In this document: positions 22,321-26,542 of the stretch, in pieces
Position numbering within the stretch: position 1 is the stretch's first letter
How the letters are laid out: each line of letters begins with the position of its first letter
NCBI RefSeq assembly: GCF_016907875.1
Contig: NZ_JAFBCU010000001.1
Coordinates: forward strand, 434,001-498,000
DNA: 64,000 bases
Direction of reading: 5' to 3'
DNA from: Arthrobacter roseus
GTDB taxonomy: Bacteria > Actinomycetota > Actinomycetes > Actinomycetales > Micrococcaceae
Made by a program: the position numbers and the translations under genes
Notes under the pieces: model-generated
Database searches by the model: none
What the model was told of the DNA's origin: nothing
The model's input: the letters and a program-made list of their open reading frames with translations, nothing else

Positions 22321-22791
22321 ATGGGAATGATTCGCGGATTCATGAATGGCGCTTTAGCAGGGGCTGCCGGCACGACAGCTCTGAACGCCGTCACCTATCT
22401 GGACATGGTGATGCGTGCCCGCCCGGCCAGCAGCACCCCTGAGACGACCGTTAAAAAGCTGAGCGAGAGAGCCGATGTCCCGATTCCGGGGTCGGGCGAA
22501 GAACGACAGAACCGTATTTCAGGCCTGGGTCCGCTGTTTGGAATCGCCACGGGCATGGGCGTCGGCGCTATCCTTGGTGCAATCCAGGGGGCAGGGGCCA
22601 GGCCTCCCGCAGCCGTGACCATTCTCCTTGCAAGCGCTGGGGCCATGGCCGTGTCCATTCTCCCGATGACGCAGCTTGGGGTGACGGATCCGCGAAAGTG
22701 GCAGACCCAGGACTGGATCAGCGACGTCGTGCCTCATGTTGCATACGGCGCTGTCACAGCCCATGTGCTGGAGAATATGCGGGAACACTGA
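22321..22791 (+). CDS. Conserved-looking membrane protein, function unknown
   Basis: 156 residues, AGAAGGA upstream of the ATG. Helix 1 is about residues 5-30 (GFMNGALAGAAGTTALNAVTYL), a soluble loop carries KKLSERADVPIPGSGEERQNR, and two glycine-rich helices follow (IATGMGVGAILGAIQGAGA; VTILLASAGAMAVSILPM). It ends WQTQDWISDVVPHVAYGAVTAHVLENM. The Gly/Ala-rich helices and invariant-looking RISGLGPLFGIATG suggest an actinobacterial family of unknown role. It is 14 nt upstream of the PfkB kinase gene. Confidence 0.7.
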   Translation: MGMIRGFMNGALAGAAGTTALNAVTYLDMVMRARPASSTPETTVKKLSERADVPIPGSGEERQNRISGLGPLFGIATGMGVGAILGAIQGAGARPPAAVTILLASAGAMAVSILPMTQLGVTDPRKWQTQDWISDVVPHVAYGAVTAHVLENMREH

Positions 22792-22805
22792 AGTACGCTG
22801 GAGCT

Positions 22806-23741
22806 GTGCTAACAGTTATCGGGGAAGCCCTTGTAGACCGCGTGGTGAGCGACACTGCGCCAACGCGGTCTCACGTAGGAGGCAGCCCCATGAATGTGGC
22901 GGTGGGCGTCGCTCGTCTTGGCTATCCTGCCCAGTTCATCGGCCGGTACGGGAACGACGACGACGGTCGTCTCATCGCCGAACACCTGCGCGCCAACCGC
23001 GTGATTGACGCCTTGGGCCCGGATGACCACAGAACATCGGTAGCTGTTGCCACGCTGGACCCAGTGGGCAGCGCCGCTTACGCCTTCGATCTCGACTGGG
23101 ATCTGCCCGCACTCATTGCCCGCCTCCCGGAACTGCTGGATGGCACAACACTGCTGCACACCGGCTCCATCGCGTCGATGCTCACTCCCGGCGCACGCGA
23201 AGTCCTCACCGCCGTCGAACATGCCCGCCCAGCCGCCACCATTTCCTACGACCCCAACTGCCGTCCCACGATCATCACGGACCGTGACTACGCCCGGGGC
23301 CAAGCTGAGAAATTCGTTGCTCTCGCGGACATCGTCAAGGCATCGGATGAGGACCTTCAGTGGCTTTATCCGGAGCGCGACGCGCAGGAAACAGCCCGCG
23401 CGTGGCTTGCGATGGGGACGTGTGCGGTGGTTGTCACACGCGGCTCAAAAGGGCCGTGGGCGATCGCGGCGTCGGGCGAAGCCACGGTCAAGACTCCAGT
23501 GGTTGGTGTTGTGGACACTGTTGGTGCCGGCGACTCCTTCATGGCGGCTCTGCTCGCGGCCACCGTCCGTCAGGAGCTCGATGGCGGCCATCGACGCGAA
23601 CAGCTGCGCAGCATTACGGTGAAACAGTTGAAACAGGTTCTTACGTTTGCATCCGCGGCAGCTGCTGTCACCGTTTCGCGCGCAGGCGCCAACCCGCCAA
23701 ACCGAGCAGAGTTGAAGGCACAGTTAGGAGAGAACACATGA
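22806..23741 (+). CDS. PfkB-family carbohydrate kinase (fructokinase-like)
   Basis: 311 residues from the GTG at 22806, after CTGGAGC; longer in-frame starts would run into the preceding gene. The PfkB signature 1 region is [16 protein letters not shown], and signature 2 [14 protein letters not shown] has the catalytic base Asp243. Substrate residues suggest a sugar kinase of the fructokinase/2-keto-3-deoxygluconate group; which sugar is not clear, since no sugar genes are nearby. It overlaps the next gene by ATGA. Confidence 0.88.
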
Positions 23742-24271
23742 GTTCACGCGATCCGTACGCGGATCTTCCTCAGATTCCTGATTTCAGGGTGACCAGTGAT
23801 GACGTCCAGGATGGGGCGCCCCTCGATGCCGCTCAGGCGTCCGGCGTTATGGGTTCTGGCGGCCAGGACCGTTCTCCGCAACTGTCCTGGAGCGGGTTCC
23901 CTGAGGGCACTAAAAGTTTTGCGGTCACCGTCTATGACCCGGACGCGCCCACTGCCAGCGGTTTCTGGCACTGGGCAGTTGCAAACATCCCGGTTGGTAC
24001 CACGGAACTACCTGCAGGAGCTGGGTCTGAAGGCAGCTCAGCCTTGCCCAAGGGCGCCGTCGAGCTCAGGAACGACGCTGGATTCCAGGGATTCGTCGGT
24101 GCGGCGCCGCCTCCCGGTCACGGTCCGCACCGCTACTTCGTGGTGGTTCATGCCGTCGACGTCGAACAGCTCGATGTGGATGCGGACACCCCGTGCGCAA
24201 AGTTGGGTTTTAACCTGTTTAGCCATACTTTGGGCCGCGCACAGGTCATCGGTACTTACGAGCTGGGGTAG
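23738..24271 (+). CDS. YbhB/YbcL family (phosphatidylethanolamine-binding-like) protein
   Basis: 177 residues from the ATG at 23738, which overlaps the kinase stop; TTAGGAG stands 8 nt upstream. The PEBP fold is supported by [40 protein letters not shown] (the DPDxP and GxxHW motifs lining the anion pocket) and [16 protein letters not shown]. Bacterial members are soluble and bind small anions; physiological roles are unknown. Confidence 0.92.
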
Positions 24272-24313
24272 CCTGTCCAGCAAATGTCAAGGTTCAACCC
24301 CGTGGGACCGCAG

Positions 24314-24643
24314 TTAGCTGGCGAAGCCAAGGAATACGAGAAGCGCTCGGTTGAGCCGAACTAGATTGGCATCTTCAAGTCTCCCGAGTCGATCACGAAT
24401 ATTCGCCTGAGGGATAGTCGTTATCTTGTCGACCATGATGTGGCTTGGCCGTTCGATCCCCGTTACAGCCGTCGGCTCGACAGTGATCCGGATCAGTGGC
24501 GCTTCAATCTCGTTGGTCGTCAGGGGGCAAACGGTGATTGACGCGGTGGCGTCGAATCGATCATCCTGCACGATGACAACGGGTCTCGGCTTACCCGTAT
24601 AGGCACCTCGTGCAGCAGCGATATATATATCGCCTCGGCTCAT
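24314..24643 (-). CDS. PemK/MazF-family toxin (endoribonuclease)
   Basis: 109 residues. The fold markers are MSRGDIYIAAA, then GKPRPVVIVQDDRFD with the RPVVIVQ core strand, ITVCPLTTNE, and IMVDKITTIPQANIRDRLGRL, matching MazF-like mRNA interferases. The Arg in KPRPV and the Thr/Ser in the CPLTT loop are usual active-site positions. The start ATG overlaps a stop codon of an upstream open frame (ATGA) exactly as in a toxin-antitoxin operon, but that frame has no start (see 24640-24738). So the toxin looks intact while its antitoxin does not. Confidence 0.9.
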   Translation of the reverse strand: MSRGDIYIAAARGAYTGKPRPVVIVQDDRFDATASITVCPLTTNEIEAPLIRITVEPTAVTGIERPSHIMVDKITTIPQANIRDRLGRLEDANLVRLNRALLVFLGFAS

Positions 24644-24738
24644 TCGGGGAGTTCCGTTTTATCGTCCCAATCCATCGAGATGGCGTCGACGAAAGCCTGA
24701 TCGTCGACTTCATGCTCGCTGGCCGCGCTGCTTCGGTT
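24640..24738 (-). pseudogene. Antitoxin remnant upstream of PemK/MazF
   Basis: An open frame of 32 codons (ending EHEVDDQAFVDAISMDWDD, then KTELPE) runs into the toxin with an ATGA overlap. It is acidic, as the toxin-binding tails of antitoxins are. Directly upstream is an in-frame TGA (24741-24739), and there is no start codon that leaves more than 9 residues. An ATG one base out of frame (24742-24740) begins MKPKQRGQRA and stops after 10 codons. A frameshift or deletion that removed the DNA-binding half is the simplest reading. The identity as antitoxin rests on position, acidity and overlap, not on a recognised family. Confidence 0.5.
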
Positions 24739-24824
24739 TCATGAGAAACTGCAGAAGGACCGACGCCGATTCTGCGCAGACGAGTGCAGGCGGACAACTA
24801 TGACCAGTTCAACAGGAGCAACGT

Positions 24825-25640
24825 ATGCGGCTGGTGGCCAGCGACCTCGATGGAACGATCATCGGCCGTGATGGGAAGATCAGCGACCGCACCGTACGGG
24901 CATTTCACGCGTGCCGGAATGCTGGCATCGAGATCGTCTTCGTGACCGGACGGCCACCGCGCTGGCTGGATCCGTTGCGTGAGCAGATTGGCCACACGGG
25001 CAGGGTGATCTGCTCTAATGGGGCGGCGCTCTACGATCTCGAGAATGAGCGCGTCCTCACCACGCATCTACTCTCCTCTGAGAACGTCCTGGAGGCCCGG
25101 CGCATCATCAAGGGGTTGTACCCGGCTGCTACCTTCAGTGCCGAAATCGAGACCGGGTTCCGCATGGAGCACGGTTTTATGCAAGAACACTCCCCGGAGC
25201 TGCTGGGCACCATCGAACCGGCTCCGTTGAAACAGTCTCTCGTTGGGGTGGAGGGCGTTATCAAGTTTCTGGCCCGTGAGCCAACTGTTTCACCGGACGA
25301 ATTCCTGGCCACGGTGCGCCCCGCGATCAGTGATTTCGCGGCGACCACGCACTCGTCACCGGGCGTCGCGCTGTTGGAGATGTCGCTCAGCGGCATGGAT
25401 AAGGGCGTTGCCCTGGCCGACTATGCCCGGCAGCTGGACATTGACGCAAACGACGTCGTTGCGTTCGGCGATATGCCCAACGACATCCAGATGCTTACCT
25501 GGGCGGGCCACGGGTACGCCATGGAGTCCGGCCACGCGGACGCGAAGGCGGCAACAGATCTGTTGGCGCCCGCATTCGAGAACGACGGCGTCGCTCAGGT
25601 TCTGGAGGAACGCCTCGCGGCTCTGCGCAGGAACGACTAG
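24825..25640 (+). CDS. HAD-superfamily hydrolase, Cof type
   Basis: 271 residues, AACAGGAGC before the ATG. Motif I SDLDGT has Asp7 (nucleophile) and Asp9; motif II is in FVTGRPP; motif IV GDMPNDIQML. The large C2 cap between about residues 85 and 190 marks the Cof/YbiV group, which dephosphorylates sugar phosphates or FMN and similar. Its paralogue at 43829 has the same architecture. Confidence 0.9.
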   Translation: MRLVASDLDGTIIGRDGKISDRTVRAFHACRNAGIEIVFVTGRPPRWLDPLREQIGHTGRVICSNGAALYDLENERVLTTHLLSSENVLEARRIIKGLYPAATFSAEIETGFRMEHGFMQEHSPELLGTIEPAPLKQSLVGVEGVIKFLAREPTVSPDEFLATVRPAISDFAATTHSSPGVALLEMSLSGMDKGVALADYARQLDIDANDVVAFGDMPNDIQMLTWAGHGYAMESGHADAKAATDLLAPAFENDGVAQVLEERLAALRRND

Positions 25641-25662
25641 CAACGGTAGCGGCGTAGCTAAG

Positions 25663-25694
25663 ACCACCGCACCACCGCACCACCGCACCACCGG
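25663..25694 (+). repeat. Tandem repeat, 8 bp x 4
   Basis: ACCACCGC is repeated three times (25663-25686), with a fourth copy ending in G instead of C (25687-25694). It lies in the 68-bp gap between the HAD gene and the glycerophosphodiesterase gene, just upstream of the latter's weak ribosome site. Confidence 0.9.
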
Positions 25695-25708
25695 GTAAGG
25701 TTCAGACC

Positions 25709-26542
25709 GTGATCCAGAGAGCCCCATACTTACAGCTCCTTGACGCCGCAACCGGTGCGCAACGGCAACTCGCCCTGGCCCACCGCGGCTACTCCCAGGC
25801 TGGTCACGAGAACTCGATGGCAGCCTTCGCCGCCGCGGTCGAGCTCGGCTACGGATTCGTGGAAACGGACGTGAACACCACGGCCGACGGCGTCCTGATG
25901 GCCTTCCACGACGACGTTCTGGACCGCGTCACGGACGGTACGGGCCGGATAGCAGATTACACGCGAGAAGAGCTCAGGTCCATCCGGATCGGGGGAATGG
26001 AGCCCATCCCCACCCTTGAGGAAATCCTCGTCCGCTGGCCGGAGCTCCGCCTGAACGTAGACGTCAAAGACGAAGCCGCCGCCGTACTGCTGGCCGAACT
26101 CATGCACCAGCACCAGGCGTGCGAGCGCGTCCTCGTGGCCTCGTTCTCCGACCGGCGGAGACTGAAAACCCTCCGTACGCTGCGACGCCTGCGCAAGGAA
26201 CGCGGCCTGAACTCGCAGGGAGCCGTGGCCAGTTCACCCGGGTATTGGGTGATGGCCGCCGTCGTACTCCTGGGCCGGCTGGGTCTGGCCCGGATGATCG
26301 CTCGGATGGCACGGATTCAGTGCGTTCAGGTTCCGCTGACCTATAAGGGGATGCGAGTGGTCACAGCGGGGTTTGTGCGCCGCTGCCACCGGGCGGGACT
26401 GCAGGTACATGTGTGGACCATCAACGATTCCTCGTGCATGAATGAGCTGCTGGACATCGGCGTCGACGGCATTCTCACGGATCGGGCAGACATCCTGGCC
26501 GGTGTCATGCGTGAGCGCGGGAACTGGCCCCAGGCGACTTAG
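25709..26542 (+). CDS. Glycerophosphodiester phosphodiesterase family protein
   Basis: 277 residues, GTG start. The GDPD TIM-barrel motifs are present: LALAHRGYSQAGHENSMAAF (the HRG catalytic His and the ENS Glu), FVETDVNTTADGVLMAFHDD (metal-binding E-x-D and second catalytic His) and, late, VHVWTINDSS and GVDGILTDR. It hydrolyses glycerophosphodiesters to glycerol-3-phosphate and an alcohol. No signal peptide, so it is cytoplasmic. The residues 165-210 region is hydrophobic (YWVMAAVVLLGRLGLARMIA) and may touch the membrane. Confidence 0.92.
   Translation: MIQRAPYLQLLDAATGAQRQLALAHRGYSQAGHENSMAAFAAAVELGYGFVETDVNTTADGVLMAFHDDVLDRVTDGTGRIADYTREELRSIRIGGMEPIPTLEEILVRWPELRLNVDVKDEAAAVLLAELMHQHQACERVLVASFSDRRRLKTLRTLRRLRKERGLNSQGAVASSPGYWVMAAVVLLGRLGLARMIARMARIQCVQVPLTYKGMRVVTAGFVRRCHRAGLQVHVWTINDSSCMNELLDIGVDGILTDRADILAGVMRERGNWPQAT

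Follow-up and report, generated by a model that had tools for sequence, protein, structure and literature searches.

We analysed a window of 64,000 nucleotides from the genome of Arthrobacter roseus, in which a small insert interrupts a pfkB-PEBP-HAD-GDPD operon (22698-26542) that is conserved in several family members. The operon begins with a pfkB-family sugar kinase gene whose start codon is uncertain (22698-23741, forward strand), followed by genes for a PEBP-like protein (PF01161; 23738-24271, forward) and a HAD hydrolase (PF08282; 24825-25640, forward), and ends with a glycerophosphodiester phosphodiesterase gene (GDPD, PF03009; 25709-26542, forward). The insert lies antisense to the operon between the PEBP and HAD genes. 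Compared with the empty site in the same genus it occupies 24276-24810, with breaks at 24275 and 24811, and about 535 bp replace ~12 bp. In the one other same-genus genome compared, PEBP and HAD are adjacent and the toxin described below is missing; family members that have both genes also carry them side by side with no toxin between, so the empty site represents the ancestral state. G+C content of the insert is about 0.56, compared with 0.60-0.65 in its surroundings. Inspection of its edges by eye revealed neither a transposase nor a target-site duplication. The AGGAG ribosome site of the HAD gene is preserved, and the antisense insert may influence how HAD and GDPD are expressed.

The main gene of the insert (24314-24643, reverse strand) codes for a PemK/MazF-family toxin of 109 aa. 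Its frame is intact, as the original prediction had stated: an ORF check found no internal stop in the 109 codons, and the product matches PF02452 (PemK_toxin) with an E-value of 1.5e-22 and 80.3 bits (cut-off 23.1 bits) over model positions 2-108 of 109. Translation starts with ATG in place of the GTG used by close relatives. An alignment with related toxins identified 30 conserved columns, defined as the same in at least 93% of sequences, and the A. roseus toxin deviates at none of them, which argues against the suggestion that the toxin had been weakened. The catalytic residues of PemK/MazF proteins are an Arg in strand 2 and a Thr in strand 3 (PMC11130411); R20 and T42, which begin strand 2 and end strand 3, respectively, align with them and are invariant in 37 aligned toxins. 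The AlphaFold model (pLDDT 87), based on an alignment from which one row derived from a plasmid record was left out, predicts a MazF/CcdB-like fold. The best 50 PDB matches to this model are all MazF-type toxins, with TM scores of 0.76-0.85 by query length, and solved MazF structures were also matched in a PDB sequence search. An NCBIfam search gave no useful family for either the toxin or the antitoxin remnant beside it. Judged from its sequence, the toxin is probably still catalytically competent, with a predicted RNase activity.

Immediately upstream on the same strand lies a beheaded antitoxin frame (24640-24738, reverse; 32 codons plus stop, NRSSAASEHEVDDQAFVDAISMDWDDKTELPE). Its stop overlaps the toxin start as ATGA, an in-frame TGA (24741-24739, reverse) closes it upstream, and it has no start codon, exactly as first described. 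The first ATG/GTG/TTG is an internal ATG at 24675 (codon 22 of 32), from which only MDWDDKTELPE could be made. The homologous part lies at about 24652-24735, and the frame comprises the last ~28 antitoxin codons and a few unrelated ones. The remnant scored 25.4 bits with a profile built from related antitoxins; when the upstream DNA was shuffled 2000 times, the highest score was 12.1 bits, and the resemblance is therefore not due to chance. A tblastn search of the whole genome with an intact antitoxin also matched the remnant, with an E-value of 9.2e-7 and 68% identity over residues 44-71, and gave no other credible match. What these profile and tblastn comparisons recognise is the C-terminal third alone; the 32-codon frame has no Pfam match and does not reach the PF11455 family model. 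The remnant keeps the conserved DDQAFVDAIS segment and has the tail TELPE where AEPxE is usual. It corresponds to positions 53-74 of 74 in the antitoxin profile, and the proposed loss of the N-terminal, presumably DNA-binding, half was borne out.

We further examined related loci. Where toxins are 65-84% identical to that of A. roseus, they are preceded by a 72-76-codon antitoxin of PF11455, a MazE-like family formerly known as DUF3018. These antitoxins contain LRPVQIWVPDVRAPEFVAEAHRQSAAIAASEHEADDQAFVDAISVDWD and end with E before a stop codon whose overlap with the toxin start has the register seen in A. roseus, which supports the original assignment of a toxin-antitoxin (TA) junction. One such relative, on a Rhodococcus megaplasmid, is annotated as 'antitoxin MazE family protein'. 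The PF11455-PemK pair of Rhodococcus ruber plasmid pmega_1 (Rruber_RS27180-27185) has a toxin ~80% identical to that of A. roseus, the same start/stop overlap and the same antitoxin C-terminal sequence; what the A. roseus locus does not share with this pair are the ~43 N-terminal antitoxin codons, the start codon and a 12-bp palindrome, GTTACATGTAAC. The QIWVPD core found in relatives is missing as well.

Among 108 distinct loci, 3 at contig edges were left out, and 105 had enough upstream DNA. The short antitoxin form is not normal in this group, as a full antitoxin with a near end-to-end profile match was present in 101 of the 105. The four exceptions are the A. roseus locus and three others, which we count as independent cases of antitoxin damage in favour of decay. 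In Arthrobacter sp. H41 (L034:2801-3330 / L108) only the last ~15 antitoxin codons are kept, a 67-codon frame with an ATG reads in frame into them, and the toxin frame is open. As in A. roseus, the palindrome has been lost and the beheading affects the same toxin family, independently; the H41 locus differs in that it lies at another genomic site and retains a strong toxin Shine-Dalgarno sequence, and its toxin is altered in a usually conserved P-S segment. In the second case (L120) the antitoxin N-terminus is frame-shifted and the catalytic Arg of the toxin is replaced with Trp, and from these sequences both halves of the module appear to be damaged. The third, from a Candidatus Nanopelagicales MAG (L155, the same as L037), has an open toxin frame, an antitoxin spread over two frames and a near-intact palindrome (GTTACATGTCAC); the split antitoxin could be an assembly error or early decay.

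The palindrome GTTACATGTAAC occurs 5' of the antitoxin start in 88 of the 101 intact PF11455-PemK operons, which belong to several phyla (for example, L022, L107 and L125), compared with a single match in 2020 shuffled controls. It is absent from the A. roseus and Arthrobacter sp. H41 loci, and also from the entire 3.08-Mb A. roseus genome. It is probably the operator of PF11455 (DUF3018) antitoxins; the literature searched contained nothing relevant on a named operator for this family. Thus, of the features of a complete type II operon, the A. roseus locus has neither an antitoxin ORF with its own start overlapping the toxin nor, if the palindrome is indeed the operator, a recognisable operator/promoter region.

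On the HAD side of the remnant, the insert contains ~70 bp without assigned identity (24742-24810, reverse) in the place where relatives have the antitoxin N-terminal half, start codon and operator. Similarity of this segment to the upstream regions of the relatives' antitoxins was at the level of shuffled DNA, and neither TTACATGT nor the LRPVQIWVPDVRxPEF core of PF11455 antitoxins was present upstream of the remnant. It has no other copy in the rest of the genome, with matches of at most 19 nt. Two candidates were dropped on account of the same shuffled-level scores: a degenerate antitoxin N-terminal homology in the ~75 bp upstream of the remnant, and HETEAARPA, a by-eye match in another frame that resembled an antitoxin helix.

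A sequencing error that hides a full antitoxin had been named as grounds for refuting the original prediction. A base-calling error is excluded, because the loss comprises ~43 codons plus the operator and the remnant lies only ~90 bp from the HAD start codon. A broader version, in which an assembly or sequencing artefact conceals an intact antitoxin, draws on the fact that the locus is known from a single genome, and is extremely unlikely: the assembly is a complete single contig (99.99% complete), the operon is collinear with that of the sister genome, with a clean end at the HAD ribosome site, and the antitoxin could be restored only by adding more than 120 bp of DNA, which goes beyond correcting bases.

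Pairwise comparisons were used to assess selection. The mean pN/pS of the toxin versus its relatives is 0.213, mid-range among the 0.16-0.27 of intact relatives, and that of the remnant is 0.176 (intact relatives, 0.09-0.28). Because neither sequence shows relaxed selection, the beheading is probably a recent event on the scale of the toxin's divergence (mean pS about 0.6). The synonymous branch of the toxin is long (mean pS 0.63), and together with normal constraint it only shows that selection acted over most of the toxin's history, not that it has acted since the break.

The unraised pN/pS and the retained DDQAFVDAIS segment would also fit a remnant that is still a working mini-antitoxin, a C-terminal peptide whose translation would rely on frameshifting or on a non-canonical start and which would neutralise the toxin without autoregulation. 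MazE-type antitoxins usually bind the toxin C-terminally (PMC4803016), and there are crystal structures of MazF with fragments of antitoxins (7du4, 7du5). However, no in-frame ATG/GTG/TTG precedes codon 22 of 32, the TGA stands directly upstream, the usual tail AEPxE has changed to TELPE, and PF11455 antitoxins have no solved relative, so a C-terminal toxin-binding site is assigned here by analogy only. The original prediction had looked to an unrecognised start or frameshift near the ATG at 24742, but this codon opens a 10-codon frame (MKPKQRGQRA and stop) with almost no Shine-Dalgarno pairing (-2.4 kcal/mol), a +1 shift would be needed to enter the antitoxin frame, and the DNA upstream shows no antitoxin similarity. 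We consider such a peptide unlikely. Still harder to accept, and quite improbable in our view, is the extended proposal that the beheaded frame, read from an unconventional start, is a minimal antitoxin free of DNA binding, forming a stripped-down, non-autoregulated TA pair that was reached independently in Arthrobacter sp. H41.

We also searched for partners elsewhere in the genome. Neither the family profile nor tblastn with an intact antitoxin detected another PF11455 protein in the complete 3.08-Mb genome, which leaves no cognate antitoxin for the neutralisation in trans that had been suggested. The locus thus fits an orphan toxin left by TA decay: the toxin is intact, and a complete cognate antitoxin was found neither in cis nor in the rest of the genome. 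Another PemK toxin, the second in the genome (G000:C1:254886-255191, L101), was found with the family profile and missed with the toxin sequence, which places it in another branch; an intact ribbon-helix-helix-like antitoxin lies upstream of it. This non-cognate antitoxin might neutralise an expressed orphan toxin, and cross-talk between antitoxin families of the MazF-type toxin fold has been documented (PMC7354431). However, rescue of this kind is very unlikely given the absence of PF11455 proteins elsewhere, the separate branch of the second toxin and an antitoxin unrelated to the PF11455 remnant.

With regard to expression, no sigma-70-like promoter was found in 22400-25000 with a scan limited to the sigma-70 consensus, which is a weak guide for actinobacteria. 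The predicted Shine-Dalgarno pairing of the toxin is -3.5 kcal/mol, compared with -7.3 in most relatives. These data bear on whether the toxin has come under new control and now serves as a stress RNase or solitary regulator. Solitary MazF proteins have precedent (PMC4803016, PMC2701414), and such a role would fit a toxin whose catalytic residues are intact and whose constraint is normal; like MazF-mx of Myxococcus xanthus, the A. roseus protein is an intact MazF-type toxin without a complete antitoxin gene. Unlike MazF-mx, it retains an antitoxin stump and shows no sign of new regulation, and the locus looks like decay. Recruitment is unlikely, considering that the toxin is missing from the one other same-genus genome compared, that no promoter was found in the sigma-70 scan, that the ribosome site is weak and the gene lies antisense inside an operon, and that the still recognisable antitoxin codons point to a recent accident rather than to a settled new use.

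We therefore favour, with a probability of roughly 75%, the view that the locus is a decaying relic of a horizontally spread type II TA operon (PF11455 antitoxin and PemK toxin) whose toxin is barely expressed. The computational results show that the antitoxin is truncated and the palindrome lost, that an empty site exists in the same genus, that the catalytic residues are intact and that the genome has no partner elsewhere. In this view, a fragment with the entire toxin gene and the final third of the antitoxin gene would have come to sit in antisense orientation within a housekeeping operon; it was captured on its own, or a complete pair landed and was then trimmed. With the operator and, presumably, the native promoter gone, the toxin would no longer be driven; with nothing to start translation of the remnant, it would also lose translational coupling to the antitoxin, and its own translation would proceed without a strong ribosome site. 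Read-through of the host operon would in addition produce RNA antisense to the toxin. An apparently active RNase may thus be tolerated because control sequences, coupling and a strong ribosome site were lost and because antisense transcription probably occurs. That the toxin is not meaningfully expressed is the likeliest answer to how the cell withstands it, and one that the original prediction overlooked. Two observations weigh against a relic: an open and unaltered toxin frame is equally expected under continued use, and the ATG in place of GTG favours translation of the toxin on its own.

Solo toxins are common in surveys (PMC2701414, PMC10790755), and the A. roseus locus is ordinary in kind and an unusually clean relic. 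It offers a clear and apparently recent snapshot of the death of an addiction module, in which the antidote was lost first and the cell survived, apparently owing to the control sequences that were lost together with the antidote. For annotators, it is a caution against presenting such a locus as a functional toxin or as a new orphan regulator. The conserved palindrome of the PF11455-PemK operons may prove more useful than the relic itself, as it provides a testable candidate operator of PF11455 antitoxins that is common to several phyla.
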